A stretch of DNA of 37,051 nt. Origin: Bacteroidota bacterium (GTDB taxonomy: Bacteria; Bacteroidota; Rhodothermia; Rhodothermales; UBA10348). The stretch lies in NCBI GenBank assembly GCA_029262855.1, contig JAJCYP010000036.1, positions 1 through 37,051 on the forward strand. Direction: 5' to 3'. The first letter of the stretch is position 1. Every line of letters starts with the position of its first letter. The notes beneath the pieces are model-generated. The model saw nothing but the letters and a program-made list of their open reading frames with translations, searched no databases and was not told the DNA's origin. Position numbers and translations under genes: made by a program. Positions 1 to 14,616 of this stretch are shown here, piece after piece.

Positions 1-567
1 CCGGGAGGCGTTTCCATTTCGGTAGACATCACCCTCGAACTTCTTCCAGTACCGGTAGGGAACGGCCAACTGCTCTTCCAGCCAGTGGACGTGTGCCACC
101 CCCTCGTGGAATCCGCAGCCGATGAGAAGGTGATAGGCACCCTCATCAACCAAACGGGAAAACACAGAGGCCGGACCAAACGAGGAGGCCGATTCCGTAT
201 CAACCAGACTGGCAGCATTTCGCCCCGCTGCGACGACGCTGTGAAACGGAGGCGCCCAGGTGCGCAGGGTACCCTCGCGAGTCCTGAACCATTCCGCCAG
301 GGCCCCGGTCTGGGCGGGTGTGGCTTCTCGATCGAACGGCTCTGCATTGCAGAAGCCGAAGTTGAAGGCGGGCATCACGACCGTGCCTTCCTCTCCAAGG
401 ACGTCCCAGAGGGCGTTCATGATGGTCTCTTCCGGGCGATCCATCATGCCGAGGGCGGCCAGCGAGGCCGCCGCATATACGGTTTGGCCAGGCTCAACGC
501 CGGCCTCTTCGAAGGCGCTGACAAAGTCCTCACGGCGAGGGCGGAGCGGATCCGGGGGCGCGTTCAT
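1..567 (-). CDS. AAC(3)-family N-acyltransferase, partial (3' end outside window)
   Basis: The reading frame starts at the ATG at 567-565 and stays open to the left edge, so about 189 N-terminal residues are visible. It resembles the aminoglycoside 3-N-acetyltransferase (AAC(3)) fold: VMPAFNFGFC near residue 64, FHSVVAAG near 107, FGPASVFSRLVDEG near 129 and LLIGCGF near 148. In surface-polysaccharide clusters this family acylates amino-sugars from acyl-CoA and is not a drug-resistance enzyme. Its ATG overlaps the TGA of the upstream gene (ATGA), so the two are translationally coupled. By context it probably N-acylates the nonulosonic sugar made by this operon. The donor could be acetyl-CoA or, given the neighbouring carrier-protein-ligase-like gene, an aminoacyl group. 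The C-terminal third, with the catalytic His region, is outside the window. Confidence 0.75.
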   Translation of the reverse strand, partial: MNAPPDPLRPRREDFVSAFEEAGVEPGQTVYAAASLAALGMMDRPEETIMNALWDVLGEEGTVVMPAFNFGFCNAEPFDREATPAQTGALAEWFRTREGTLRTWAPPFHSVVAAGRNAASLVDTESASSFGPASVFSRLVDEGAYHLLIGCGFHEGVAHVHWLEEQLAVPYRYWKKFEGDVYRNGNASR

Positions 568-1703
568 GCCTCTTGGAGGATCTCGGGCCAGTCACCTGGC
601 TCGGGCCCGAAGTGAGAGAGAACCGCCAGAGTCCAGCGCTCGATGCCGAAGCCGACACAGCAGGAGTGTACCGGATCGCCCGTCGAATCCCGGATGTTGA
701 AGGCGAGTCCGAAGTGGTCCCGGTGATGATTCACCGATCCAACGGCCAGGGATTCTGCCCGTCCGGCCACCCGGACGCGTAGTTCTGCCTTGAGATCAAA
801 CCCCATCTGAAACAATCGGCCCTTCTCCCACACATCGGTAAAGAAGGGATCGGAGGCCGACTCGATCCAGGAGTGCAGGCGGGTCGCCTGAAGAAGCCTC
901 CCGCTGAGTGCCAGGAGCGTATCCCGGAAGTCACTTACGGCCTCCGGCTTTCCGATGGCTACGATCTCACGCATCGAGAACTCCCCGAGTCTATCTAGCC
1001 CTGCGCCGGCGGCACCCTCGTGCCGGAAGCACTTGGCTGAGGCCGACTGGACCATCAACTCCGGCTCCACCACCGAATCGGCCAGGGTGGTGAACAGTCG
1101 GTAACACACGGTAGGGGCAAGGGCGGAAGACAGGCGGGACGGGATTTCGGAGCCAGAAATGATCTGGGACGCGGCGAGCTTTACATCCTCCGGCTGGCCG
1201 GGGAGGTGACAAACCAGATTGGCCTGGTGCGGAAAGTCTCGAAGGTATCCCGATCGGGCAAGATCCTGGGTGAACATCAGAGAGGGGAGCAACCACTCAT
1301 CCGCCCCCAGTTTCGCTGCCTCAGTCTTCATCATGCGCTCCAGTCGGGTGGCGAGAAGCGCCGCAGTTCCGCCGAGGGCAAGGGTCGTTGGCCCCACCGG
1401 TTTGAGGTCGCCCCGCTCTCTCAGCAAGTCTTCGACGTTTTCGTACGCCGGTGAGGGATGCTTGGTGAAGCTGGCCAATCGGCGGGATGGGAAAGCCTGG
1501 ATAGCGCGCCCCCGATCGTCGGCCGCCTGCATCAGATCGGCCTGATCCAAGGGCTTCTCGGTCACGAACCACAGTGATCCGGTCTTGCTTTCGAAACCGC
1601 AGGCGGTCACGCCTTCGAGGCTCCAGGCGAGATGCCGCGCAAGCTCATGGCAGGCGTCCTCGCCGAGTCCGGCAGGAGCGGCAACCGCTGTTCGGACACT
1701 CAT
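564..1703 (-). CDS. SerRS-like amino acid:[carrier protein] ligase-type protein
   Basis: A 379-residue class II aminoacyl-tRNA-synthetase-like protein. Motif 2 is visible as CFRHEG (225-230) followed by EFSMREIVAIG, and motif 3 as SCCVGFGIER (347-356). There is no N-terminal tRNA-binding arm of the kind ordinary SerRS has. Cys200, Glu246 and Cys349 are spaced 46 and 103 residues apart. This closely matches the zinc ligands I recall for the Bradyrhizobium amino acid:[carrier protein] ligases (Cys131, Glu176, Cys279) and for atypical archaeal SerRS. Such enzymes activate a small amino acid and load it on a phosphopantetheine carrier instead of tRNA. It overlaps both neighbours by ATGA, so it belongs to the nonulosonate operon. 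No carrier protein is visible in the window. The role, aminoacyl supply for sugar N-acylation, is inference. Confidence 0.72.
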   Translation of the reverse strand: MSVRTAVAAPAGLGEDACHELARHLAWSLEGVTACGFESKTGSLWFVTEKPLDQADLMQAADDRGRAIQAFPSRRLASFTKHPSPAYENVEDLLRERGDLKPVGPTTLALGGTAALLATRLERMMKTEAAKLGADEWLLPSLMFTQDLARSGYLRDFPHQANLVCHLPGQPEDVKLAASQIISGSEIPSRLSSALAPTVCYRLFTTLADSVVEPELMVQSASAKCFRHEGAAGAGLDRLGEFSMREIVAIGKPEAVSDFRDTLLALSGRLLQATRLHSWIESASDPFFTDVWEKGRLFQMGFDLKAELRVRVAGRAESLAVGSVNHHRDHFGLAFNIRDSTGDPVHSCCVGFGIERWTLAVLSHFGPEPGDWPEILQEA

Positions 1704-2701
1704 GCGTGAACCTCGAGTTCAGAGAGCAGGGCCCTCAAGACCCGGCCGGCACCCCCATCGTCCACCATCCCCCGGCTTTGCTGGTGCATGTGGAGGAGTC
1801 GTAGGCGATCGCTCTCCAACTCGGCCACCAGCCGGCGCATGTGTACCAGGCTATCGCGACCGATCACTCCGGCGTTGAGACAGACACCCCGGTCGTAGAA
1901 ACTCTCCGCCATGAGGTTTGCATGTTGCTCGCGTTCGAACAGATTCACCGAGGGAAGGCCGGCATAGACCGCTTCTACTGTGGTAAGTCCTCCAGACAAT
2001 ACCGCCAGAGCACAATTCTCCATGATCTGCCACATTGATCGATTCGTCTTTGCCAGCACGACCTCGTGCCCTGGTCGTCCCTGGACGCAGCGAACCAGTT
2101 CGTCATACCGATGCCCATATCCCTCTCCCAGCAGGACCCATAGCATCAGCGGACTGTCGCATGCCACCAAGGACTCGAGCACGCGAAGCGTCTTGTTGCT
2201 TGCATCGGCCCCGCCCATGCATATGGCTACCGGAAGTGGAGTCTTACGGGCTGCAACCCCAAAAACATCACTGGGAATAGGCCGACAGTATTCGCTGAAG
2301 ACGGCGTACTCCAGGCCCGCAAACACGCGCGTTCCGTGGCTCTCTACAGGATGGTGGCGGAAGAACGCGCAATCAACCGCGTCCATCTGATCGAAGACGG
2401 GTGACAGGCTGGCCACCAACCTGGACGCCTCTCTAAGCGGAGCCATCAATCCACGGTCCAGGCTCACGGTGTCCAGGACCGTGATGTCGGCTGCGAGGTT
2501 CTCCCTGGTCAGGTCGCTCTCAAACTCAATCAGGGAGACCGGAAATGGCAGGTCCCGAAAGAGCGAACTCATCGACGGATCCGCAATCGCAGTCATCCTG
2601 ACATTGGCGTCATCGGCGATTGACCGGCTGAAGGCCCGGGCGCGAAACAGATGGCCCAGTCCCATGGTGGCAGATCCACTGCAGATGACGTGGATGTCCA
2701 T
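1700..2701 (-). CDS. PseG/SpsG-like nucleotide-sugar hydrolase or glycosyltransferase (GT-B fold)
   Basis: The protein begins with ATMGLGHLFRARAF, the G-x-GH-x2-R signature of PseG/SpsG-type GT-B proteins. It has GGADASNKT near residue 185 and GGLTTVEAVYAGLPSVNL near 255, matching the nucleotide-binding loop of the GT28/MurG-like C-terminal domain. PseG removes UDP from the 2,4-diacetamido sugar before NeuB/PseI condenses it with phosphoenolpyruvate, and lying directly after neuB suits that role. An upstream GTG at 2704 is in frame. I chose the ATG at 2701-2699 because it forms a TGATG overlap with the neuB stop. The frame ends in an ATGA overlap with the SerRS-like gene. Some family members are true glycosyltransferases, so the hydrolase role is likely, not certain. 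Confidence 0.75.
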   Translation of the reverse strand: MDIHVICSGSATMGLGHLFRARAFSRSIADDANVRMTAIADPSMSSLFRDLPFPVSLIEFESDLTRENLAADITVLDTVSLDRGLMAPLREASRLVASLSPVFDQMDAVDCAFFRHHPVESHGTRVFAGLEYAVFSEYCRPIPSDVFGVAARKTPLPVAICMGGADASNKTLRVLESLVACDSPLMLWVLLGEGYGHRYDELVRCVQGRPGHEVVLAKTNRSMWQIMENCALAVLSGGLTTVEAVYAGLPSVNLFEREQHANLMAESFYDRGVCLNAGVIGRDSLVHMRRLVAELESDRLRLLHMHQQSRGMVDDGGAGRVLRALLSELEVHA

Positions 2702-3702
2702 CACGGGATCAGCAGAAGATCCCAGGAGAGGGGCGTGTGGCGTTCAATGGCGCGGGTTGTCCTGGCCCCCAGAACAGCCGGCAGATCCCGGGGACCGAGC
2801 ACGCCGACCGGCCTGACCACCAGGATGTCCTCCGGGGTCAGGACATGTCCGGAAGGGAAATCGGTGGCCGCAAAAAGCCCTCGCCGGGCGACGCCCGCCA
2901 CGCGGAGTTCTTCCGCACTCAGCTTCTCGTGGTGAGTTTGAAGGGCGCTCTCTGCCTCCCGGATGGAGTCGATATAGCCGGCCAGGCCGGAAGGCTCCAT
3001 GGCATAGGCGTGGTCATAGCCCTCGCTGGACCGGTCGAGCGTGAAGTGTTTTTCAAACCAGGTGGCACCGAGCGCTACAGCCAAAATGGCGGCCGTATCC
3101 GTCTCCGTGTGATCGGAGAAACCCACCGGCATGCCGAAGGCGCTCTTGAGCGTGGCCACAAAACCGACATTGGCTCTCTCGACCGGCGTGGGATAAACCG
3201 ACACACAGTGAAGCAGCACCGGCGCCTCGGCGCCTGTTTGCTGCACTACGCCAATCGCGTGCTCCACGTCAGCCAGTGTGGACATCCCGGTGGCCAGAAT
3301 AACCTGGAGTCCGGTCTCCGAAGCACTTTGAATCAGCCCGTCGTTGTTCAGATCACACGAGGCGAGCTTGATATACGGCACCCCGAGTCTGACCAACAGA
3401 TCGATTCCCCTCTGATCAAACACAGAGGCCGAGATGGGCAGGCCGAGTCCTAAGGCATGGTTCCAGAGATCCGCATACTCAGCGTCCGACAGCATTCCCT
3501 GTCGGCGTCGCTCGAGCGCCGGGTTGATCTCGAATCCGTCACTGGTTTGGAGTCGAGGGATATAGAGACCCTCGGGGTAGATGATCTGGAACTTGACCGA
3601 ATCGGCACCGGAGGCCTTCGCGACATCGATGAGTTCCTTCCCGGTATCGAGCCGGGCATTGTGATTCGTGCCGGCCTCGGCGATGATGTGTATGCGATTC
3701 AA
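2701..3702 (-). CDS. NeuB-family nonulosonic acid synthase
   Basis: NeuB/PseI/LegI enzymes condense phosphoenolpyruvate with a six-carbon amino-sugar to give a nine-carbon nonulosonic acid. The 333-residue length is typical. The N-terminal barrel shows HIIAEAGTNHN (residues 5-15), KFQIIYPEGLY, KLASCDLNN, LLHCVSVYPTP, FSDHTETD and FEKHFTLDR. The C-terminal SAF (antifreeze-like) domain is visible from LFAATDFPSGHVLTPEDILVVRP onward. The sequence does not reveal whether the product is sialic, legionaminic or pseudaminic acid. The PseG-like neighbour favours a pseudaminic- or legionaminic-type 2,4-diamino sugar. It starts 9 bases after the pyruvyl transferase stop and is coupled to the PseG-like gene. 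The genes that make the sugar precursor (PseB/PseC or equivalents) are not in the window. Confidence 0.93.
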   Translation of the reverse strand: MNRIHIIAEAGTNHNARLDTGKELIDVAKASGADSVKFQIIYPEGLYIPRLQTSDGFEINPALERRRQGMLSDAEYADLWNHALGLGLPISASVFDQRGIDLLVRLGVPYIKLASCDLNNDGLIQSASETGLQVILATGMSTLADVEHAIGVVQQTGAEAPVLLHCVSVYPTPVERANVGFVATLKSAFGMPVGFSDHTETDTAAILAVALGATWFEKHFTLDRSSEGYDHAYAMEPSGLAGYIDSIREAESALQTHHEKLSAEELRVAGVARRGLFAATDFPSGHVLTPEDILVVRPVGVLGPRDLPAVLGARTTRAIERHTPLSWDLLLIP

Positions 3703-3711
3703 TGGAGCGGC

Positions 3712-4806
3712 TTATGCTGTGGCGCCTGTCCCCGCGAAACAGGCAGTAACATCTCGGGCGAAGGCCGAGAAGCTGTTCCGACAGACGGTCCGGTATTCGG
3801 ACCAGATCTGGCGGGCATCCTCCACGATGCGGGAAAGCTCATCCAGACGCCCGAGCCTGTCCTGAACCGCGTCCACGACGCTCGAGGTCTCCATCAGGTT
3901 GATATTCCAGTCTCCCAGTCCAAGGGTGGCCATCAGGCTGAGGGCCCGCTCGTCGTAACTGATCTTGATGGAGGGGGTGCCCATGGTCAGCGCCGGAAGG
4001 GTGGCGTGGAGGCGGTACGATACGCTCAGGTGCGCTTCGCCAAGCAGGGCCAGGTACGTATACACATCATCCGTGTAGATGTACTCGGCTCCGGGAATAG
4101 AGGCGGCGAAGGGAATGTCGCGGTAATCGTGGCACAGCAGTCGAACCGGACGGCCGGTAGCCTGCCCGAGGAGACCTATGAGGTCGACGACGTCCTGATG
4201 TACCTCGGCCTGTTTCTGCAGCGGGATGTTCATCAGGTGCGGATGGCGAATCGAGAAGAGGACGCTGTCCCTGTCCCGGGTCGGGAGACGTGGAAGACGC
4301 GAGGCGATCGAATCCAGGAAGACGGTGGGGCATCCTCCGACAATCACATCGGCACAACCCATCGAGGCCAAATCCTGCTGTGTGGCTTGATCGCGGACCA
4401 GCGTGTAGTCTGCTGCGCTGATGAGAGCGCGGATACGTGAGGCAGGCATGGCATCGGTGCGTGCCGTGAGGTCTCCTGCGCGGTTGTAGATCCTTCCGCG
4501 GGACAGACTGAACAGCATCAGGGGTACGTCCAGTGCCTGAAGGGCGTCCGCGTTGAAGTCCAGCTCACCGTTCTCCAGCAAGTTGCCGCCTCCGACAATC
4601 ACACCGTGGCCATACTGATTGATCTCGTGGATCACGCTGGCACTCAGGCCTGCGCGACCTCGAACATCATACTTGGCGGTTGCCGGCAGGGAAATCACAT
4701 TGACGACCTGCCCAAAGGCTTCGGTCAGCAGTTCCTGCAGGCCCAGATAGATGGCATCGTTTCCGATGTTGAATCCAACGGGTCGGATACAAAAGACGGT
4801 AATCAT
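3712..4806 (-). CDS. Polysaccharide pyruvyl transferase family protein
   Basis: A 364-residue member of the CsaB-like polysaccharide pyruvyl transferase family, which adds a pyruvate ketal from PEP to a sugar or acts as a related GT-B transferase. The N-terminus has NIGNDAIYLGLQELL, followed by GHGVIVGGGNLLENG (residues 66-80). The C-terminal half carries the family hallmark SVSYRLHATLPALTMGTPSIKISYDER (written here as SVSYRLHATL and SIKISYDER). One base separates it from the upstream cytidylyltransferase stop. It probably decorates the glycan or a repeat-unit sugar. The acceptor cannot be told from sequence. Confidence 0.85.
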   Translation of the reverse strand: MITVFCIRPVGFNIGNDAIYLGLQELLTEAFGQVVNVISLPATAKYDVRGRAGLSASVIHEINQYGHGVIVGGGNLLENGELDFNADALQALDVPLMLFSLSRGRIYNRAGDLTARTDAMPASRIRALISAADYTLVRDQATQQDLASMGCADVIVGGCPTVFLDSIASRLPRLPTRDRDSVLFSIRHPHLMNIPLQKQAEVHQDVVDLIGLLGQATGRPVRLLCHDYRDIPFAASIPGAEYIYTDDVYTYLALLGEAHLSVSYRLHATLPALTMGTPSIKISYDERALSLMATLGLGDWNINLMETSSVVDAVQDRLGRLDELSRIVEDARQIWSEYRTVCRNSFSAFARDVTACFAGTGATA

Positions 4807-4807
4807 G

Positions 4808-5500
4808 CTAACGCGTCCTGGGGGTGGTTCCGGCTCGAATGAAGGCAGCCGCGACAGATTGGTAGGGGGCCGTCAGCAATTCACTCCCGAGGAGATCCGC
4901 AACGCGATTGGCCGTTTCCAGATCCTCTGAGGTGTCAACCACTGTCCGGATACGCGGAAACTCCCCTCCGGGAAGGACGATGATCCGGGTCTTGCTGTCA
5001 TCATACAGGGCCTTGGTGACGTGCTCGCGGGCGTCCGAGTCGGTCGTAGTGGCCATCAGTCGTCGAAAGTGTGCTACCTCCACGACCTCGACCGCGATGC
5101 CATAGGGGTAGGCCCGGCCTGGCAGGTTCGAGATCAGATGCGCCCCGGACTCGGCCGCCATCTGAATGCCGCGTGAGGCGAGATCCGCATCCAAGAAGGG
5201 CGAGTCTCCATTCAACCTGAGGAAATGGGTCGATTCGGCGTCGAGCGCTCCGAGGACCCGAGCGCTGACGTCAGAAATGGATCCCCGGTAGCAGCGTACG
5301 CCCAGCGAGTCCGCATAGGCTTGCAGCGCGTCGTCCTCCGGTGCGGTCGTGGTTGCAAGGACCAGGTCTGCAAGTTCCCGGATGGACTGTGCGCGCCGGA
5401 TGACGTGCCCAAGGACCGGCAGGCCTCCGAGGTCTTCCAGCACCTTTCCTGGCAGCCTTCTGGATCCCATACGGGCGAGTATTACTCCCGCGACCCGCAA
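4808..5500 (-). CDS. SpsF/NeuA-type cytidylyltransferase
   Basis: The protein opens with VAGVILARMGSRRLPGKVL, the nucleotide-binding signature of the SpsF branch of acylneuraminate cytidylyltransferases. FLRLNGDSPFLDADLA near residue 92 supplies the metal-binding Asp region. At 230 residues it is normal length. NeuA/PseF/SpsF enzymes activate the nonulosonic acid with CTP to a CMP-sugar, the donor for glycosyltransferases. The only start matching the conserved N-terminus is a TTG at 5500, one base after the preceding stop, so initiation may depend on translational coupling. Substrate specificity is inferred from the neuB-family gene two places downstream. Confidence 0.88.
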   Translation of the reverse strand: MRVAGVILARMGSRRLPGKVLEDLGGLPVLGHVIRRAQSIRELADLVLATTTAPEDDALQAYADSLGVRCYRGSISDVSARVLGALDAESTHFLRLNGDSPFLDADLASRGIQMAAESGAHLISNLPGRAYPYGIAVEVVEVAHFRRLMATTTDSDAREHVTKALYDDSKTRIIVLPGGEFPRIRTVVDTSEDLETANRVADLLGSELLTAPYQSVAAAFIRAGTTPRTR

Positions 5501-5501
5501 G

Positions 5502-6809
5502 CTAGGCGCCGATGATCTGTTCGATCAGGTCAACGACGCGATCGGCTGAGTGCCCGTCGTGATTCAGATTCAGTTCTGGAAGAACGGCTTCTCGGCGGCC
5601 CCGAAGCTCCTGGCGGTATGCATCGCTCTCCAGAATTCGCGCGAGTTCGTCCCGCAGGTGGTCCGAATCGTGGACCCACGACAAACCGTCCTCGGGCGAG
5701 TAAAACTTGACGAAAGGAGTCGGACCGGAATCTACCATGACGACCGGCCGATCCAGAATCATGGCTTCGGTGATGAGTGTCGATGTCGCGTCGGGCACGA
5801 CAACCACGTCCGCCGCACGAATGAGCGATGCCTTTTCCCTGACGAGCGACGCCTGGGAGTAGTCCACATGGATCAGTTCCACGCCCTTGTCCGAGAACCA
5901 GCGCCGATAATCGGCAAGCTCTGCTGTCGTTGGGGGACGTCCCGGTTTCTGTCGGGACTCTCCGGGGTGGGGTCGGACGGCAACCAGAGGGGCCCGCTCC
6001 AACTGTCCGACCGCATCGGCAAACATCTCGTTGCATTCCATGAGCATGAGCGCCTTGTCGGCGAAGAACAGGGTCCCGCCCGAGGCGAATCCTCCCGCGT
6101 AGAGAATGAACGGTCTGTCCAGGGGCACTCCCACCTCCTGGCGCGCCTGCTCCCTTGACAAACGGGCCTCGGGAGAGTAGAGGACGTCCCATTGGGCCGC
6201 CCCCGTCGCATGCACCATCGACGGCTCCGATCCCAACGCGATCAGGGCTTGACGCTCCCGCTCACCGAAGACCACGAAATGCCAGTCGTGGGCCGGTGGA
6301 GCGAGATCGGCGCCCCACGCCGGATTGCCGTGTGACAACTCGATGACCGGAATCCCGTGCCGCGCGGCCACGGCCTGAAGGACACGCTGTCCGGAACTGA
6401 GGCATGATCGCATCACCACCGCCCTAAGATCGGTGGAGGCTATCAGTCGCTCCATGATTCGGACAATCAGGATCTGATTCTCCGCCATGGAGAGGATTTT
6501 CTCGACCAGGGGACGGCCTCCGGCAACAAGGAGATTGCCGACTTCGGAATCGAAAGCACCTGCCGCTGAGCGGCTGGTAATGGCTGTCGCAAACCGGCGA
6601 CCCATTCCCTTGGACTGCTCCGACGCCGCCGTTGCATCCTCCTGCTCGGCAAATTCGAAGAAGGCTCTGGCCTGACCTCCCTGGTCCTGGAGAATCTTCC
6701 TCATTGGAGGTTGATTCATGATGGGCCGAGCGCCCCGCTCAGCCGCCTTGTGGATGATGGGGAGGTATTCTTCGTACGAGAAATCAAAAAAGAGGACGTC
6801 GGCATTCAT
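5502..6809 (-). CDS. GT-B-type glycan transferase (capsule/CDP-glycerol transferase-like)
   Basis: A 435-residue protein with no signal peptide. Its C-terminal half has the layout of GT-B transferases related to capsule or CDP-glycerol glycerophosphotransferases: FILYAGGFASGG, VAVRPHPGES near residue 290, then AADVVVVPDATSTLITEAMILDRPVVMVDSG. The His-Pro-His-like HPGE element and the S/T-x-E nucleotide loop are visible. In this operon it may attach the CMP-activated nonulosonate, or another sugar, to a protein or lipid acceptor. That is inference; I cannot assign it to a numbered GT family with confidence. The ATG overlaps the stop of the 900-residue transferase (ATGA), and it sits one base before the cytidylyltransferase start. 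Confidence 0.65.
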   Translation of the reverse strand: MNADVLFFDFSYEEYLPIIHKAAERGARPIMNQPPMRKILQDQGGQARAFFEFAEQEDATAASEQSKGMGRRFATAITSRSAAGAFDSEVGNLLVAGGRPLVEKILSMAENQILIVRIMERLIASTDLRAVVMRSCLSSGQRVLQAVAARHGIPVIELSHGNPAWGADLAPPAHDWHFVVFGERERQALIALGSEPSMVHATGAAQWDVLYSPEARLSREQARQEVGVPLDRPFILYAGGFASGGTLFFADKALMLMECNEMFADAVGQLERAPLVAVRPHPGESRQKPGRPPTTAELADYRRWFSDKGVELIHVDYSQASLVREKASLIRAADVVVVPDATSTLITEAMILDRPVVMVDSGPTPFVKFYSPEDGLSWVHDSDHLRDELARILESDAYRQELRGRREAVLPELNLNHDGHSADRVVDLIEQIIGA

Positions 6810-9517
6810 GCGGGCTCTCGTCGCTGCGCCGCAGCTATCCAGGCCTGTACCAGATGCGGAAGGAGTTCGAATTCCATGTGCTTGGCCAAATCGAGCCCGT
6901 CGTACGAAAGGACAGGCTTCCAGTCGGGATTCTGACTCCAGGTTGACGCCAGTCTCCCGACCTCGCGAGTGAGGGCCTTCAAGTCCTCAGCCGGGTGTGT
7001 GTTGGCGTAGCCTTCCAGTGCTTCCCGGTATGCTTCGGGTCCGACCTGCACTTTTTCGCCGCATTGTGCACAGCGCTCCCGGGCGACCGGGTGGCCGGAG
7101 ATGGTCTGTTGCTGAAAGTCCATCAACTGCTGGCACCCCGGACATCGACAGGTGACGACCGCATTCACCATCCGTGGGCCGAGTCCCATGATCTGGGTGA
7201 CCTCCAGCGGAGGCTGATCTCCACTCACCTCCCTGGAGACGGTCTCCACCAACGCGCGAACCTGTTCCACCTGACCGTCAAGGCTGTAGTGCTCCTGAAC
7301 GAAGTCCCGGTAGGCCCTGGACGTGTACGCAGGAGAGGTGATCATCTCCACAGCCTCCTCAATGGAGTCGAAAAGCATTTCTTCCGCCCAGATTTCTCCG
7401 GCAAACGCGAAGTTGTGAACCACGGGCTTTATGCCTCTTGCCATCCCTTCGGCTATCGAGTAACCGAAGCTCTCGTGGACGCTCGTCGAGAGGAGATACT
7501 GCTTGTCGGCAAGGAAACTCGCGATGTCATCCTGCCATTCGTACATGACCACATTGTCCTGGAGACCGAGTCGGACGGTCTGATGACTCCAGTACAATTT
7601 CAGAACAGGGTCCTGGAATTTCCCCGCCACGTGAAGCCGATACCTCGTGTCCTTCTTCAACAGTCGGTGCAGAATCTGGAGCGCCATCTGAGGGTTCTTC
7701 CGACCGTGGAGGTACCCGATCAGGGCGATGTCGAATCCTGGCTCCCGCTCGACCAATTCATACCGGGCCATGTCGACGCCGTTGGGTATGTGTGTAACGT
7801 GCGTTCGCTGCCGAAGACCCGGTAGCGCATCGGACACGATTTCGGCAAGATGTGGCGCTACGACGATGAGCGCATCGACCTGCTCCCACTGAACCTTGAG
7901 GGGCATGTCACTGAAGGCCTCGTACCTGTGCAGCCGGCAGATCACCCCCTTGTGACGTGAAATGTCCTGACGGCTCGCCCAGATAATCGGGTCGTTGCAC
8001 CATTCAAACCAGGCGACGTCCGCCCACGCCGTCGCCTTGAGGATGTCATCCTGCGTCTCGACCACAAACCGTCGCGCGTCCACGTGAGGCAGGAGTTCGC
8101 GGATGAGGTCGGTGAGGAACTGGTCCAGGCCCTTCGAGACAATAAACGCCAGCTTCAGATCGGGTACACCGTCCTGGTAGCCGGTCCCGAGCGCGACCCG
8201 TTCGTCCAGACTCTGGCTCATCCAAAGACGATTCCTGAGCCTGGCTGCAACCTCTTCTGACCCCGCCGCTGTGGCCACCTGAGCCAGCATGTGGAGGCAC
8301 TCGGCATGCTCGGGATCGTGCACCAATCCCTCGCTCAGAAGGCGCACAGTTTGGTCGGGCTGATTGTCTTGCCACGCCAATTGGCCTTTGAGCGCCAACA
8401 GCACTGCAGGCTTCTCCAGGTCCGCGGCCCTGAGCGCCCCCGCCAAGGCACGTGCCTGCTCAAGATCGCCCGAATTGAGGGCATGGAGCGCCCCTGCAAG
8501 TCTTTCGCCAGGCGAGGCCTCGCTGGTCGTCTCAGCCACGCGAGAAGAGATGTTTGCCTTCAGGCGGACCAGTTCGCGCGGCAGTTGATCACAGTTGGAA
8601 ATCAGGTACTCACAGGCCTCCCGAGCCTCCTTCGTCGAAAGGTCCGGGTCACGTCCGTCGAGGAAGGCCTCGATGACCCTCAGGCTGTGAATGCCTGACC
8701 CATAAACGGTCGTGATAACCTGCGCCCGTTGCCGAATCAGACCAAGAATAACACTGTCTTCGATGGCGTCATGAGTCTGGAGCAGCCGGCCACCCACAAG
8801 AAGAGCCAGCAGGTTTGTGACCGCTCGCTCAGTGGACATGTTGCTCCGATGGGAGAGCGAAGCGTCATGCTCCCGCCGCAGGTATACCCCCTTTTCGGGC
8901 ACCCGGACCACCGCGTCGGGTCGCTCTGCGCAGAGGCGGCAGATCAGGATGAAATCCTCACTCGTCCTGAAAAGCGAACTCGCGAAATGAGGCCGGGCCT
9001 CGGCCGACCGGATGACGGTGCCCGCCTGAAGTGCTCGCATTTCACCGCCAAACACGAGTTCGCGAAGAAGCTCCCTACCCCTGGTGCCCTCGAAAGCCCG
9101 GCGGTTGAACTGGACCGACTCCGGTCGTCCTTCCACAAGGAAACGTACCTCCGGCATGGCAACAAACAGCGTATCCGGATCGTCCGCGAGTGCAAGGGCC
9201 TCCCCAGCAAAGGCAGGGAAATCCTTGAGGTAGTCGTCATCGCCACACAGGGCAAAGAACTCGGTACCGCAGAATTCTACTCCGTGGAGAGCCGCCTGAG
9301 CGGGCCCGCCGTTCTCCGGTCGAGACGTAAAACGAAGGTCAAATTCCTCGGCCAGGGACTGCAAGCGGATCTGAACCTGAGCGCTCGATGCATCGTCCGC
9401 GATCAGTAGCGGAATCTCGCTCCAGCGGCCCTGCCGAACGTCGGACTCCAGGAAGTTCGGCCGCTCATACGTGTGGACGATCACGGTGAGCCGCGAAGCG
9501 ATGTTTTCTGGCACCAT
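6806..9517 (-). CDS. Bifunctional glycosyltransferase: GT2 + TPR-like middle + GT4-like domain + zinc ribbon
   Basis: About 903 residues, first gene of the glycan operon. The N-terminal GT2 domain shows LTVIVHTYERP, LLIADDASS and the DxD-type FFALCGDDDYL within the first 110 residues. A helical stretch around 340-450 with repeated leucine/alanine pairs (LAGALHALNSGDLEQA and similar) looks TPR-like. A second, GT4-like domain follows, with HIPNGVDMARYE, ALIGYLHGRKNPQMAL and ESFGYSIAEGMARG. Near the C-terminus CxCxxC (about 790-795) and CxxC (about 816-819) form a probable zinc ribbon, which is unusual here. I prefer the ATG at 9517 over the TTG two codons upstream. Two transferases in one chain suggest two successive sugar additions. 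Confidence 0.78.
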   Translation of the reverse strand: MVPENIASRLTVIVHTYERPNFLESDVRQGRWSEIPLLIADDASSAQVQIRLQSLAEEFDLRFTSRPENGGPAQAALHGVEFCGTEFFALCGDDDYLKDFPAFAGEALALADDPDTLFVAMPEVRFLVEGRPESVQFNRRAFEGTRGRELLRELVFGGEMRALQAGTVIRSAEARPHFASSLFRTSEDFILICRLCAERPDAVVRVPEKGVYLRREHDASLSHRSNMSTERAVTNLLALLVGGRLLQTHDAIEDSVILGLIRQRAQVITTVYGSGIHSLRVIEAFLDGRDPDLSTKEAREACEYLISNCDQLPRELVRLKANISSRVAETTSEASPGERLAGALHALNSGDLEQARALAGALRAADLEKPAVLLALKGQLAWQDNQPDQTVRLLSEGLVHDPEHAECLHMLAQVATAAGSEEVAARLRNRLWMSQSLDERVALGTGYQDGVPDLKLAFIVSKGLDQFLTDLIRELLPHVDARRFVVETQDDILKATAWADVAWFEWCNDPIIWASRQDISRHKGVICRLHRYEAFSDMPLKVQWEQVDALIVVAPHLAEIVSDALPGLRQRTHVTHIPNGVDMARYELVEREPGFDIALIGYLHGRKNPQMALQILHRLLKKDTRYRLHVAGKFQDPVLKLYWSHQTVRLGLQDNVVMYEWQDDIASFLADKQYLLSTSVHESFGYSIAEGMARGIKPVVHNFAFAGEIWAEEMLFDSIEEAVEMITSPAYTSRAYRDFVQEHYSLDGQVEQVRALVETVSREVSGDQPPLEVTQIMGLGPRMVNAVVTCRCPGCQQLMDFQQQTISGHPVARERCAQCGEKVQVGPEAYREALEGYANTHPAEDLKALTREVGRLASTWSQNPDWKPVLSYDGLDLAKHMEFELLPHLVQAWIAAAQRREPA

Positions 9518-9594
9518 GGGCAACTCAATTGATGAGCGCAGTTTAAGCCCGTCTTTGCACAGATGCAGGGGAGACCGTGCTATCTTTCGCGACC

Positions 9595-9715: not shown

Positions 9716-10936
9716 TTACGGAGATTTTACAGAGGCGGCCAAATCCGTTTGTAGGCTGCTTTGTAGGCTGGGCATTCCCATCGCGCCCAAAACAGCGTCT
9801 GCGTGGCTTCGGGTGAAGATGGCCTCTCGCTGCTGGTATCTCCGGGTCATTACGTTATCCGAATGGCCCATGGCCCCTTGCAGAATGGTGAGCGGAATCC
9901 CTGCCTCTTCGCCGTACTGCGAGATCTGGGCGCGAAGGTCTTTGAACCGTACCCCGTCAAGTCCGGCTTTCGACCTCGCTGCCTTCCACGGGTAGTCCAG
10001 GTCTCGGTAGGAGATCGAGAAGACCGGGTCAGATGGGCCCTTCCCGGCGGCCAGCTGCAGCAGGTCGTGAGCAAGGATCCCGGTGATGGTCACTGTGCGC
10101 GTCCTGCTGGCCGTCTTGGTGTCCTGCAGGTGGACTTCTCCCCAGTGCCCTTGCTCGTCCGCGTAGATACGCAGATCGCCCACCAGCAGGCCGCGGGTGA
10201 CCTTCCCTCGGTGCGAGGGGCCAGCCAGGAGGACCGATCTGTCTGCAGACGTCAGGAGGGCGGTCTGGACAACGACGGCGAGCTCGGGGTATCCGCAGGT
10301 GTGACAGGCATCCAGAAGCCTCCGGATGTCGTCCGGGGACAGGTGGACCTTCCGAGTATCGTTAACCGCGGTGAACTCGACGTCGGCAAAGATCTCGTTC
10401 CGGCGAGCCTTCCCGAGATGGAAGCGGAGCAGCTGGGAGACCGTGCGCTTGAACTGCCGAACGACCGTGTTCCGGTGCCGGGTGCCTTCCTTCTCCGGCG
10501 CCTCCATGGCCGTGTGGCAAAGGGTGGTGATGGTCTTTGCCGTCAGGTAGGAGAGGCGGGCCCCGGCCGGAGTGTACTCGAGCAGTTGGGCCAGCCCCAG
10601 TTCAGTCACATGCGATCCGGAGAACCCTCGGCGGAAGTCGCTCGCCGCTTCGGTGAGTCTCGGATCATCGATGCTCACCAGGAGCGTGTCCAGATCCCGC
10701 CTCGAGGCGAGCAGCTCGGCAGGGGAGACTGAGTGATCCCGGCACACCGCATCGAGGAGTACTCGGTACCGGGGTTCGATCAGGGCCGTTTCTGCCAAGT
10801 CCTCCAGCGCTTCCTCCATCCGGGCGGCCAGCTTCTTGTTCGCTGTCCCCGAAGAGATCTGCCCGGTGTCGCCGTATCCAACCAAGCGGCGGCGCCTGAT
10901 CTGATAGAGCGGAGAGCCTTTGCGTTGAAATGCCAA
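9716..10936 (-). CDS. Tyrosine recombinase/integrase
   Basis: A 406-residue phage-type integrase. The N-terminus RKGSPLYQIRRRR...GYGDTGQISSGTANKK is the arm-type domain that follows the rgt/TGT pattern of site-specific integrases. Catalytic candidates are Arg233 (TSADRS), Lys274 (QDTKTASR), box II KDLR with Arg335, His358 (MGHSD) and the nucleophile Tyr367 (RRYQQ). Box II has Lys332 where His is usual; this is tolerated in some family members. The start is a TTG at 10936 preceded directly by AGGAAGGA, the first AGGA lying 4 bases upstream. Six bases separate it from the excisionase-like gene. It runs toward attL and is the likely enzyme for integration at tRNA-Arg. Confidence 0.92.
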   Translation of the reverse strand: MAFQRKGSPLYQIRRRRLVGYGDTGQISSGTANKKLAARMEEALEDLAETALIEPRYRVLLDAVCRDHSVSPAELLASRRDLDTLLVSIDDPRLTEAASDFRRGFSGSHVTELGLAQLLEYTPAGARLSYLTAKTITTLCHTAMEAPEKEGTRHRNTVVRQFKRTVSQLLRFHLGKARRNEIFADVEFTAVNDTRKVHLSPDDIRRLLDACHTCGYPELAVVVQTALLTSADRSVLLAGPSHRGKVTRGLLVGDLRIYADEQGHWGEVHLQDTKTASRTRTVTITGILAHDLLQLAAGKGPSDPVFSISYRDLDYPWKAARSKAGLDGVRFKDLRAQISQYGEEAGIPLTILQGAMGHSDNVMTRRYQQREAIFTRSHADAVLGAMGMPSLQSSLQTDLAASVKSP

Positions 10937-10942
10937 TCCTTC

Positions 10943-11251
10943 CTATAGTACGCGCCTCGAGACCCCGTTTCCGTTCATCGGCAGGACTCTGGGGCCCGGC
11001 CGGCTGATTCGTGATCGGAGTTCTTCCAAGGCTCCTTTGATGTCGATGGGCTTGATGCCGCGCGCGTAGCAGAGGAGATCGGCTCCCATGTACCGGATGC
11101 GTCCTCTCTTCGGGCCCACACGGCACTGGGGCAGTTCCGCCTCGCTGATCTCATAGATAGCCCGGTAGTTGGACATGCGCAACCAGGCAGCCGCTTCCTT
11201 GGCCGTGTAGAGGGCGGAGGGGTTGATGGTCGTGGGGGCTGGAGTGTCCAT
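10943..11251 (-). CDS. Excisionase-like helix-turn-helix protein
   Basis: A 102-residue protein. Its middle, ALYTAKEAAAWLRMSNYRAIYEISEAELP, continuing with CRVGPKRGRIRYMGADLLCYARG (given here in two parts), matches the MerR-like excisionase fold: an HTH that reads a pole pattern, then the wing, then the R-x-R/F helix. Proteins of this type bind att arms and steer the integrase toward excision or act as repressors. I chose the ATG at 11251-11249 because it gives the complete HTH with a short N-terminal tail. It lies directly upstream of the integrase in the same orientation, the usual xis-int order. Confidence 0.75.
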   Translation of the reverse strand: MDTPAPTTINPSALYTAKEAAAWLRMSNYRAIYEISEAELPQCRVGPKRGRIRYMGADLLCYARGIKPIDIKGALEELRSRISRPGPRVLPMNGNGVSRRVL

Positions 11252-11252
11252 G

Positions 11253-11660
11253 TCAGGCGGTATCGTTGATCTTTGCGTAGCGGAGGACAGTAGCGGTCCC
11301 GAGACCAGTCCATCTGTCACCGTGCCACCGCGCCACATGGAAAACGCGGTCCGTCTGGATGAGGTAGTCTCCGTCCTCCTCCGGCGTGTCACCCTCGGTC
11401 CATACGGGATCGGTGGGCGGCACGGGCTGGCCCTTCCACTGATCCGGCGGATCCAGAAACTCCGGGTCTTTGTCGTCGAGGGTTGCCACGGCGAAGAGCA
11501 GCGCGTTCGCCATCCCGTACATGTAGGGGCCGTAGTTCCAGTTGCCGTCCTGGAGTTGAACATCCGCGGCCTTGCGGATGTCGTCGATGCGCTTGAAGAT
11601 CTCCCGCTGTTCCCTGAGTGGCAGCGAAGCCTTCGGGAGTCTCTCGTATTAGGTTTCCAT
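11253..11660 (-). pseudogene. Phage-type hypothetical gene with an in-frame stop at codon 4
   Basis: Translation from the ATG at 11660-11658 gives M-E-T-stop, with TAA at 11651-11649. The frame is then open for over 130 codons to 11253, with no ATG/GTG/TTG start until MYGMANALLF about 46 codons in. The downstream protein (YERLPKASLPLREQ..., then WNYGPYMYGMANALLFAVAT) reads as a continuous globular protein, so a CAA-to-TAA change at codon 4 is the simplest account. A shorter product starting at the ATG at 11522-11520 (89 residues) is possible. Function is unknown. It ends one base before the excisionase-like gene starts, so it was probably in the same operon. Confidence 0.55.
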
Positions 11661-11667
11661 GGTTGGG

Positions 11668-11850
11668 TTACTTCTTCGCCTTGTACAGGCCGTTGTAGAG
11701 AATCTCGTGGGTCCCGCCGTAGATGGTCCAGGCGATCAGGAGCGACCACCAGGTGACCGGGAGGCCCCAAGCCGCGAGAATGTGACCGCAGATGATGGTG
11801 GCGCCGATGGCCTTGGCCGCATGCCAGGCATCGATGAAGGCAGTCGCCGG
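11668..11850 (-). pseudogene. 5'-truncated small membrane protein fragment
   Basis: The minus-strand frame ending with TAA at 11670-11668 encodes FIDAWHAAKAIGATIICG, then one or two hydrophobic segments with several Trp residues, ending in LYNGLYKAKK. It has no ATG, GTG or TTG start within the coding-looking part and hits a stop upstream inside the opposite-strand gene. It looks like the C-terminal portion of a holin-sized phage or mobile-element membrane protein. Its end lies 7 bases before the ATG of the next minus-strand gene, consistent with a former operon. Identity is not established. Confidence 0.45.
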
Positions 11851-12536
11851 TCCACGGGCTGGCGCACACAGACCCTGACTACCCGATTTTCGTGCTGGCG
11901 TTTTGCCTGTTCAAGGTCGATGAGTACATCGACACGATGCCCGACGTCACCCGGTTTAAGTTTCTGCACTTCAGGCACGATCAGGTCATCCTGCACGAGC
12001 GGGAAATCCGACGGCAAACCGGACCCTTTTCGATCTTGCGCAATCGAGACGTCCGGACTGCATTCATGTCCGACCTTGGGCAGATCATCCAGGACACGCC
12101 GACCACGGTCATCGCTTCCGTGATTGACAAGGCCCGCCACTCAGCCAGGTACAATAACCCGGCCCACGTTTACTACACCGCTCTAGCTTTCTGCCTCGAA
12201 AGACTCTACAGGCACCTGCGCCCCTTGTGCGCAGGCGGAACGACGACGGTCGTGCTCGAGGCGCGTGGCGGAAAAGAGGACGACCAAATGGAGCTTGCAT
12301 TTCGGAGGTCCTGCGCCAACAATGCAACAGGGTATCAACTCCCGTTCGAGCCGATGGTCGTCTCTAAGAAATCCAACTGTTCAGGACTGCAGATTGCCGA
12401 CATGTTCGCGAGACCAATCGGTCTCCATATCCTCCGTCCTGGACAGCCAAACCGTGCCTACGACACCATAGAACCCAAGCTTCGTCGCAGCGCGAATGGT
12501 CGGGTCCTCGGGTGGGGACTCAAAATATTCCCCTAA
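11850..12536 (+). pseudogene. DUF3800 protein, N-terminally truncated
   Basis: Protein homology begins abruptly at HGLAHTDPDYPIFVLAFC (from about 11853) and runs to the stop at 12536. It includes the DUF3800 C-terminal hallmark CSGLQIADMFARPIGLHILR and NRAYDTIEPKLRR. DUF3800 proteins normally start with an Asp-Glu-Ser-Gly motif (RNase-H-like active site) about ten residues further upstream. That is missing here, and an in-frame TGA lies at 11835-11837. The first possible start is a GTG at 11892, which would give a 214-residue protein without the N-terminal acidic residues. The family is common on mobile elements and phage islands. I judge this copy inactive. Confidence 0.65.
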
Positions 12537-13144: not shown

Positions 13145-13465
13145 CTAGCCCAGATCTCCCGTCAGCAACTCCTCGGCTCGGCGGAGCCCCGCTGAGGTGA
13201 ACTTTGCAGCGGCGTAGTGACCCTCTGTCGACTTGCTACCGGCCCTCCGGAGGTAACCGCCCTCAATCAAACCATTGAGAAGTGGCAGCGTCCCATTCAA
13301 TTCCTCTGTGTCCAAATTGAGGAAAAGGTTGGCCCCGCTTAGGTTAACCACGAGTTCGGTCTGCGTTTCCCGATCTGACGCGGGACCGCAAGCACGGACC
13401 AGGTCCTCCAACATCGCCATCCGGTGTTTGTAGAGGGCAACCAGCACCTCATCTCGTGTAGTCAT
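13145..13465 (-). CDS. Small winged-helix-like hypothetical protein
   Basis: A 106-residue protein, third gene of the 15221-to-13145 operon. Its start overlaps the stop of the HTH-ImmA/IrrE gene (ATGA). The pattern LPLLNGLIEGGYLRRAG...HYAAAKFTSAGLRRAEELL has the helix-wing-helix look of small MarR/PadR-like domains, where a wing is followed by LTxxG. That suggests a DNA-binding or protein-binding winged helix. I do not recognise a family. Coupled translation suggests it works with the two upstream proteins. Confidence 0.6.
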   Translation of the reverse strand: MTTRDEVLVALYKHRMAMLEDLVRACGPASDRETQTELVVNLSGANLFLNLDTEELNGTLPLLNGLIEGGYLRRAGSKSTEGHYAAAKFTSAGLRRAEELLTGDLG

Positions 13466-14616
13466 GAAAGTAGGGGTTTCCTTTCTGAGCCAAACGCAAC
13501 GAATCGGAGGGGTTGAGAGGGGTCCAAGAGACCGTGGGGCAGCCCTGCAATTCGTTCAACTTCCCGGGGGGGCAGATCGACGCCGTTGCAAATATCTGCC
13601 GGAGATTGGATTCCTTGGTCGAGCAGCACGCGGATGCTGCGGCGGAGAAGTCTCGGCACTTCCGGTTTCAGTTGATCGTCGAAAGGCTCGGATTTGTGCC
13701 AACCGCGGTACCGATGCTGTCGCCACAGTTTGGTGGTTTCCTCGTCGGTTATCATGCCGAGAGCGCTTGCTCGCATGATCATGGATGCAATGGAGGCCTT
13801 CAGACGAGGCTTCTGTATTCGAAAGACTTCAAGGCTTGGCTCGGAGATTTCGCGCAGGAATCGACTGGCCGGGAGGAGGAACGCACCAGCGAATCGATTC
13901 GCCTGCTTCTCGATAGTCGCGTGGTGGGCGAGCTTTTCCGCCATCGAGAGGTCGCGATGCAGGACCATGTGGCCAAGTTCGTGGGCAAGATCAAAACGTG
14001 ATCTCACCGAGGCGCCCTTGTCCGCATTGAGCAGGATATAGTCACGCCGACCATCTAGCGCGGGTGTTGAGAGCGCATCCTCAGTTTCCTGATACAAGGG
14101 CTCCCGTGCGACCACAAACCCGTTATTCTCAGCAAGCAGGACAACGTCGGACACGATCCCATCCCCGATGCCCCAGTGCGTTCGCAGCGAGTTGGCTGCA
14201 GCCTCGGCTACCGCAGCATCATAGACCGTCGGGTCCACAGGAATCGAAATGACATTGGTCCCCGCCGGCAGCTCGAGGAACTCATCAAGATACAAGACCA
14301 GGCGGGCGAGCCAGCGGAGCCGCCAGCCGGCCGATCGCCGTCCCGCCTTTTCCTTTCCTATGGATCGAAAAAAAATCGGGCGACGCGACTTAGGCTCTGC
14401 TGGTCGAAAGAAAAACGATACCGGAAGGCCGAGTTTCTCGGCGATCGCGTCCACCGTATCGGGGGTCGGTGTTACGTGTCCGGCCTCATACTGACTTAGG
14501 CTGTGGTTCGAGACGGTGCCACCCAAAAGCTGCGCAATCGCAACCTGCGTCATAGCCCTGGCCTCTCTAGCCTCCCGCAGGCGCGACCCAACGAATCCGG
14601 GTGTACCCTGCCTCAT
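13462..14616 (-). CDS. XRE HTH + ImmA/IrrE metallopeptidase protein
   Basis: A 384-residue two-domain protein. Residues 10-66 are a Cro/CI HTH (LREAREARAMTQVAIAQLLG, then SNHSLSQYEAG). Residues about 140-260 are an ImmA/IrrE (COG2856) zinc peptidase with HELGH at 212-216 and the downstream acidic EKQANRFAGAFLLP, the third-ligand region. Family members cleave a regulator when they sense a signal, as ImmA cleaves ImmR in ICEBs1 and IrrE cleaves DdrO in Deinococcus. This fused form carries its own DNA-binding domain and is common in phages and toxin-antitoxin-like pairs. It overlaps both neighbours by ATGA. The likely substrate is one of the small regulators nearby; this is inference. Confidence 0.88.
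   Translation of the reverse strand: MRQGTPGFVGSRLREAREARAMTQVAIAQLLGGTVSNHSLSQYEAGHVTPTPDTVDAIAEKLGLPVSFFFRPAEPKSRRPIFFRSIGKEKAGRRSAGWRLRWLARLVLYLDEFLELPAGTNVISIPVDPTVYDAAVAEAAANSLRTHWGIGDGIVSDVVLLAENNGFVVAREPLYQETEDALSTPALDGRRDYILLNADKGASVRSRFDLAHELGHMVLHRDLSMAEKLAHHATIEKQANRFAGAFLLPASRFLREISEPSLEVFRIQKPRLKASIASMIMRASALGMITDEETTKLWRQHRYRGWHKSEPFDDQLKPEVPRLLRRSIRVLLDQGIQSPADICNGVDLPPREVERIAGLPHGLLDPSQPLRFVAFGSERKPLLS

Follow-up and report, generated by a model that had tools for sequence, protein, structure and literature searches.

A class II synthetase-like ligase in a nine-gene nonulosonate cassette, a probable carrier-dependent N-acylation module

A nine-gene cassette spanning two contigs

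The window, which is the whole 37,051-nucleotide stretch analysed here, is contig C36 of a Bacteroidota genome in 146 contigs (98.95% complete, 4.29% contamination). Near its left end, on the minus strand, is a gene for a 379 aa homologue of SerRS-like amino acid:[carrier protein] ligases (564..1703, ATG start). As an earlier note on this DNA had claimed, it overlaps both of its neighbours, by 4 bp each: a minus-strand gene for a PseG-like UDP-sugar hydrolase (1700..2704; TIGR03590, 58.1 bits, below the cut-off of 153.55) and a gene for an AAC(3)-like acyltransferase, the first 189 codons of which occupy 1..567 on the same strand before the contig end cuts it. Beyond the PseG-like gene, also on the minus strand, are genes for a NeuB-family nonulosonate synthase with a SAF domain (2701..3702), a polysaccharide pyruvyl transferase-like protein (3712..4806; PF04230, 78 bits) and a CMP-sugar synthetase-like cytidylyltransferase (4808..5500; PF02348, 83.5 bits). 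The NeuB-family protein is above the gathering score for both PF03102 (217.9 bits) and SAF (32.0 bits) and below the cut-offs of both specific models, NnaB TIGR03569 (254.9/399.65 bits) and PseI TIGR03586 (231.8/340.25 bits). No PseB or PseC model matched above its cut-off anywhere in the source genome. When the PseG-like protein was used to query 238 genomes of the class, 14 genomes besides its own had a match, the two best-scoring at 23–24% identity, and a single plasmid record matched (26.4% identity).

The cut acyltransferase gene continues on contig C119, which came to attention when its carrier protein surfaced as a small second carrier in a genome-wide carrier search. The end of C119 (7534–7674) is identical to positions 1–141 of the window, and this 141 bp sequence was found in only two places in the genome, both of them contig ends; a length of 141 equals the largest k-mer that a common metagenome assembler uses by default. 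Joined, the acyltransferase gene (window 1..567 plus C119, locus L012, to 6862, minus strand) encodes 412 aa with a C-terminal methylmalonyl-CoA-epimerase-like VOC domain, and the protein is here called AAC(3)-VOC. The fusion is independent of the contig join, as the AAC(3) part from residue 143 and the VOC domain are in a single frame inside C119 alone. The small DSL-motif carrier that the earlier note had proposed looking for to the left of the window is encoded directly after this gene (75 aa; C119 6638–6865, minus strand; PF00550, 29.9 bits, cut-off 20.8). It is followed on the same strand by genes for a SAM methyltransferase (C119 5952–6641) and a DUF4910 protein (C119 4657–5955). The order on the minus strand is therefore cytidylyltransferase, pyruvyl-transferase-like, NeuB, PseG-like, ligase, AAC(3)-VOC, carrier, SAM methyltransferase and DUF4910, and every junction from NeuB to DUF4910 is a 4 bp overlap.

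Comparison with a genome of the same genus, G001, set the limits of the cassette. An adjoining run of genes for two glycosyltransferases, a class V aminotransferase, an MFS protein, NIF3 and a zinc-ribbon protein is present there at 48–82% identity. None of the nine cassette genes was found by tblastn in the matching 19.9 kb of G001 (L113, G001:C3:121000-140900), and searches of that whole genome for the ligase and for the PseG-like protein returned neither. As genes from both contigs lie together in G001 without the nine, the contig join is supported and the nine genes are one discrete cassette, which marks one insertion, or one loss in G001. The cytidylyltransferase is the first cassette gene. 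At the cassette border is a gene for a glycosyltransferase-like protein (5502..6809, minus strand) that is kept in G001 at 48% identity, and outside it is one for a large glycosyltransferase with GT2, TPR-like and GT4 stretches (6806..9523, minus strand), kept at 53% identity. The class V aminotransferase, considered as a further operon member, was dropped since G001 has kept it while lacking the cassette. NIF3, which is on C119, matched along its length in two same-genus genomes, with 374 and 324 bits (a comparison that in the second, G002, covers a short stretch around NIF3 only); in seven other genomes examined its matches were split in two and did not exceed 150 bits. Contamination or a false join was rejected on the strength of these scores, the confinement of the 141 bp sequence to two contig ends and the presence of both contigs' genes together in G001.

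In the part of L113 where the cassette is absent (4047–9213), the glycosyltransferases are 48–53% identical to those of the window while the MFS protein is 82% identical, and the whole surface-sugar locus may for this reason be variable. Upstream of the glycosyltransferases, window positions 9719–11869 include an unassigned ORF next to a gene for a protein resembling tyrosine recombinases (PF00589, 28.2 bits), and the two are possible remains of a mobile element. An IrrE-like M78 peptidase domain and an HTH domain are encoded at 13465–14616; regulators of this type are common in mobile elements. Elsewhere in the source genome is another glycan cluster, with a lower G+C of 56% (L115, G000:C25:15000-34900, positions 3445–9489). 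It encodes an aminotransferase that matches the PseC model, an acetyltransferase of the hexapeptide type and an N-acetyl sugar amidotransferase of the WbuX type (265 bits, above its cut-off).

The ligase and its family

The ligase consists of a ferredoxin-like domain (residues 1 to approximately 85), which the earlier note had not described, and a catalytic domain (residues 88–379). Its top PDB sequence match with phmmer was Bll0957 (3mey; E 1.1e-38, residues 120–375). Among NCBIfam models, the amino acid--[acyl-carrier-protein] ligase model NF005479 ranked first with 174 bits, short of its cut-off of 357. The SerRS models NF002120 (110.8 bits) and methanogen-type TIGR00415 (99.7 bits; cut-off 489.55) came next, and the bacterial SerRS model TIGR00414 gave 15 bits. 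Judged by its sequence, the protein may work like the Bll0957 type, yet it sits outside the curated NF005479 equivalog. A structure model built from 28 sequences (pLDDT 88.4) had as its best fold match the glycine:[carrier protein] ligase 4h2s, and as this match has an E-value of 1.9e-27 and a VIA Z of 32.5 (287 residues of the 88–379 segment, 2.5 Å), the likeness of the model to carrier ligases is not due to chance. The comparison with Bll0957-type ligases by structure prediction that had been suggested as a check thus returned carrier ligases as the best match by both sequence and fold. The first non-ligase in the fold ranking was the Methanopyrus kandleri SerRS (VIA Z 30.3). The nearest true synthetases in fold are of the methanogen type (TIGR00415, 3w3s, 2cim), which are approximately 520 aa long; the M. 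barkeri SerRS is 17–19% identical to the window ligase.

The class II motifs 2 and 3 reported earlier are borne out by a 28-sequence family alignment in which R227 and E229 (motif 2) and R356 (motif 3) are invariant. In the same alignment Cys200 and Cys349 are invariant and Glu246 is conserved in at least 90% of sequences, with Asp read at this column in the relative at locus L090. These three residues, whose spacing had been likened to that of the zinc ligands of carrier ligases, do fall on the Bll0957 columns: they align with 3mey chain residues 151, 196 and 299, which become 131, 176 and 279 after subtraction of an apparent 20-residue tag, and these are the residues that we take to be the zinc ligands of Bll0957. 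Archaeal SerRS shares the same zinc site, and the Cys/Glu/Cys columns therefore do not separate a carrier ligase from an archaeal SerRS. A SerRS coiled-coil arm was not found in the predicted model, in agreement with the claim that a tRNA-binding arm is missing. The window ligase and the Bll0957-type ligases (3mey, 4h2s) thus have in common a predicted class II core, the zinc-ligand columns, a nearby carrier gene and the lack of this arm. The window ligase differs in being only 29% identical in a structural alignment, in falling below the equivalog cut-off, in its extra N-terminal ferredoxin-like domain and in its location in a nonulosonate operon. Folded separately, the N-terminal domain (pLDDT 84.1) had no Foldseek match in the PDB at 0.001 or below, the best being a ferredoxin-like, metal-binding-like fold at E 0.019, and no PDB sequence match below E 0.3. 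The relative at L057 has a similar N-terminal extension, aligned from residue 13 of the ligase onward.

To survey relatives, 283 pattern matches were reduced to 177 confirmed relatives, and the best 80 loci of the 177 were analysed, with flanks that stop at contig ends. A carrier-protein ORF (E < 1e-4) was found within 4 kb of the ligase gene in 70 of these 80 loci. The profile was our own build from 10 seeds, one of them the window's carrier, two (L020, L021) annotated only as hypothetical proteins and three (L065, L074, L083) from among the 80 loci; with these three loci removed the count is 67/77. No ORF scored among 13,701 reversed or 13,701 shuffled controls (0/13,701 each). Of the 10 loci outside the 70, L056, L078, L086 and L091 have weaker matches, that in L067 is further away, and L047, L053, L057, L069 and L102 have none. 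With the threshold relaxed to E < 0.01 and no limit on distance within the locus, the count was 75/80.

The pairing of such a ligase with nonulosonate genes was seen in the source genome only. When the cassette proteins were used as tblastn queries over 89 ligase loci (the best 80 of the 177, eight plasmid loci and L016, a weak match), NeuB, PseG, AAC(3) and VOC had no match at E ≤ 1e-3, the VOC query starting at residue 291 of the joined protein, and the cassette carrier had one match, in L090. The ligase itself was found in its own genome alone both among 60 genomes and among 244 genomes of the class, and 395 phylum genomes yielded one further match, which is partial (34 bits). Matches in 94 plasmid records were all below 60% identity and none covers 80% of the ligase. 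Viral contigs and a single-protein scan of genome contigs returned none, and phages a single unannotated match (27.6%).

Two glycan contexts among the relatives indicate that the ligase family does occur in glycan settings. At L090, from a Pseudomonadales MAG, a relative of the ligase is encoded at 1470–5113 together with WbqC, a hexapeptide protein, a carrier and a 2OG-oxygenase-like protein (19.8 bits, under its cut-off), possibly a second glycan use of such ligases. In a Tsukamurella plasmid, the ligase relative shares its cluster with genes for glycosyltransferases and an exopolysaccharide glycosylphosphotransferase. The four Tsukamurella loci (L023, L099, L101, L104) each combine a ligase relative with a carrier protein, and in the annotated plasmid of L023 the two are accompanied by a phosphopantetheinyl transferase among polysaccharide genes. 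Eight plasmid regions with ligase relatives were examined. Two have no gene table and the other six have a small carrier or carrier-like gene nearby (four so annotated, two identified here). In five of the regions (Streptomyces, Azospirillum, Tistrella) the relatives are beside other biosynthetic genes, for instance those for oxygenases or an acyl-CoA dehydrogenase, and no nonulosonate gene is annotated.

AAC(3)-VOC and related modules

The window part of AAC(3)-VOC is by itself sufficient to assign the AAC(3) fold (PF02522, 105.8 bits; gathering score 25). None of the aminoglycoside-resistance AAC(3) models reached its cut-off with this 189 aa part, the best being AAC_3 (70.5 bits; cut-off 270). 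The AAC(3) domain of the window was aligned with three from the phylum and four from plasmids. The His of an HxxE-like motif, presumably catalytic, is present in seven of the eight, including the window's; the exception is that of Solidesulfovibrio. The VOC domain reached the general model PF13669 (42.5 bits; cut-off 27) and scored 49.7 bits against methylmalonyl-CoA epimerase TIGR03081, its closest family, under the cut-off of 114.95, with a 139 aa query that starts inside the domain. Its PDB match was 1jc4 (E 9.9e-7). A phosphopantetheinyl transferase is also encoded in the genome (PF01648, 48.1 bits).

Matches to AAC(3)-VOC were returned from 209 of 395 phylum genomes, its own included, and among the matches listed most of the further ones cover the VOC part only. 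The three best after its own were examined. L165 includes genes for a carrier, a GNAT, AAC(3), DUF4910, a glycosyltransferase, NeuB, a methyltransferase and a cytidylyltransferase, and no loader was recognised in the region. L167 has a NeuB-cytidylyltransferase fusion, a second cytidylyltransferase, an AMP-binding enzyme that is the apparent loader, a carrier, a GNAT, AAC(3) and DUF4910, with a pyruvyl-transferase-like protein further on. L166 has an AMP-binding enzyme, carrier, GNAT and AAC(3), the last at the contig end, and no DUF4910 match in the stretch before it. AAC(3)-VOC also matched 26 plasmid records, some in the VOC part only. Three of the nine regions examined (Maritalea, Agrobacterium salinitolerans and Tritonibacter) include pse/NeuB genes, all three with DUF4910. 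In Maritalea the AAC(3) domain is inside an 819 aa protein annotated as a HAD-IIIC phosphatase and there is a carrier-like match in the adjoining protein (E 2.4e-5); no loader or carrier was seen in the A. salinitolerans and Tritonibacter regions. Solidesulfovibrio L135 combines an adenylation protein, a carrier and an AAC(3) located near the record end, with no DUF4910 match in the stretch.

Comparable gene sets are in print. The available part of the DUF4910 structure paper describes clusters for surface carbohydrates such as Clostridium acetobutylicum CA_C2186-2199, which shares with the window's cassette NeuB, a nucleotidyltransferase (SpsF-type), a glyoxalase, DUF4910, a methyltransferase, amino-sugar N-acetyltransferases and an acyl carrier protein, and also includes an ATP-grasp aminoacyl ligase and an N-acetyltransferase-HAD protein; unlike in the window's cassette, the glyoxalase is a separate gene and the table includes no class II synthetase homologue (PMC4000134). 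Aeromonas polar-flagellin islands similarly combine pseudaminic-acid genes for flagellin glycosylation with an acyl carrier protein and an AMP-dependent synthetase, but in the text available the loaders (AMP-dependent synthetase, LuxE) are described as fatty acid synthesis and an aminoacyl step is not mentioned (PMC7874193). The earlier note knew of no characterised glycan pathway with the pairing of ligase and N-acyltransferase. This stands in so far as none of the papers listed, judged by titles and the starts of abstracts, links acylation of a glycan to a homologue of class II synthetases, and none was found that joins nonulosonic acid to seryl-tRNA synthetase; it does not extend to carriers and N-acyltransferases, which these partly available sources place in nonulosonate clusters. 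Carrier/AAC(3)/DUF4910 modules in varying combination with NeuB-type genes are thus already known, the recognised loaders there being of other kinds, and what is new here is the synthetase-like loader and the AAC(3)-VOC fusion.

A proposed route and its alternatives

The cassette is best called a carrier-dependent N-acylation module for surface nonulosonates, with a class II synthetase homologue as its loader. We favour, with moderate confidence, a module for carrier-protein-dependent N-aminoacylation, in which an amino acid is loaded and then transferred by AAC(3) to a sugar amine. From the genes, their order and their family matches we infer each reaction, the amino acid and the acceptor. 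The SerRS-like ligase would use ATP to form the adenylate of a small amino acid and load it as a thioester on the 75 aa carrier, whose gene is the second one downstream. The AAC(3)-like domain, in place of the usual acetyl-CoA-dependent N-acetyltransferase, would move the aminoacyl group to the free amine of a UDP-amino-sugar precursor or of the nonulosonate, and the PseG-, NeuB- and cytidylyltransferase-like enzymes would make the CMP-activated sugar. As a guess, the methyltransferase may methylate the carrier-bound acyl group, giving an N-methyl, and the fused VOC domain may epimerise its alpha carbon.

The module is consistent with the likeness of the ligase to Bll0957 in predicted fold and zinc columns and with the DSL-motif carrier in the same overlapping gene run. 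The carriers near the ligase family, the absence of the cassette from G001, the phylum and plasmid modules and the phosphopantetheinyl transferase also argue for it, as does Leg5GluNMe7Ac, an aminoacylated nonulosonate cited for C. botulinum in the available part of one source (PMC5207245); N-acetyl-alanyl amino sugars are listed in another (PMC3210612, seen in part). Against it are the score of the ligase under the NF005479 cut-off and the lack of a recognised loader at L165. The aminoacylated nonulosonate that the earlier note had proposed is thus upheld in part: its predicted chain of parts is present, but the pairing was seen in one genome only and PseB and PseC are missing above cut-off. 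In addition, acetyl-CoA is the donor chiefly known for enzymes of the AAC(3) type, and AAC(3)-VOC could therefore simply acetylate.

Methylmalonyl-CoA epimerase acts on an acyl thioester, so inversion at the alpha carbon of the acyl group could be the work of the VOC domain. It is possible, if doubtful, that this domain acts in this way on the carrier-bound amino acid, and that the product, formed with a class II synthetase-like loader and without an amino acid racemase or NRPS-type domain, is a nonulosonate bearing a D- or N-methyl-aminoacyl group. We know of no physiological end product for the solved Bradyrhizobium ligase, and a ligase locked in a nonulosonate cassette offers the family a definite product that can be put to the test. 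The modules compared here suggest a rule of surface-sugar variation, in which one carrier/AAC(3) module, often with DUF4910, is served by interchangeable loaders (AMP-binding, HAD-type, synthetase-like). If the N-aminoacylation route is correct, the cassette is one possible source of the aminoacylated nonulosonates reported by chemists.

An alternative that we consider unlikely is that DUF4910, the gene for which is inside the cassette, moves the carrier-bound aminoacyl group to the sugar while AAC(3) acetylates with acetyl-CoA as a substitute for PseH. Transacylation of peptide or glutamine to an amino sugar is indeed one option proposed in the available part of the DUF4910 paper, which also reports that the protein has no conventional peptidase active site (PMC4000134). 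This reading is weakened by that lack and by the combination of carrier, AMP-binding loader and AAC(3) without a DUF4910 match in L166 and Solidesulfovibrio L135, in both of which AAC(3) is at or near the end of the sequence. It is decidedly unlikely that the product of the ligase, carrier and methyltransferase is a modified amino acid, or a small aminoacyl compound able to diffuse, with no relation to the sugar, their location among sugar genes being incidental. The five plasmid regions in which ligase relatives accompany other biosynthetic genes would fit such a product, but sugar genes overlap the window ligase gene at either end and form with it one block that is either wholly present or wholly absent, and the Tsukamurella exopolysaccharide cluster and L090 are further glycan settings in the family. 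That the protein still aminoacylates tRNA, with aminoacyl-tRNA as the donor for the sugar, is very improbable: the NF002120 and TIGR00415 scores, the M. kandleri SerRS close behind the ligases in fold, the zinc site shared with archaeal SerRS and an N-terminal domain that could bind RNA (its best match, at E 0.019, neither supports nor excludes this) are countered by the adjoining carrier gene, the carrier ligases as best match by sequence and fold, and a canonical SerRS in the genome. A role as the SerRS of translation was rejected, as the genome has its own canonical enzyme on contig C46 (TIGR00414, 465 bits) and the ligase gene is thus probably not needed for serylation.
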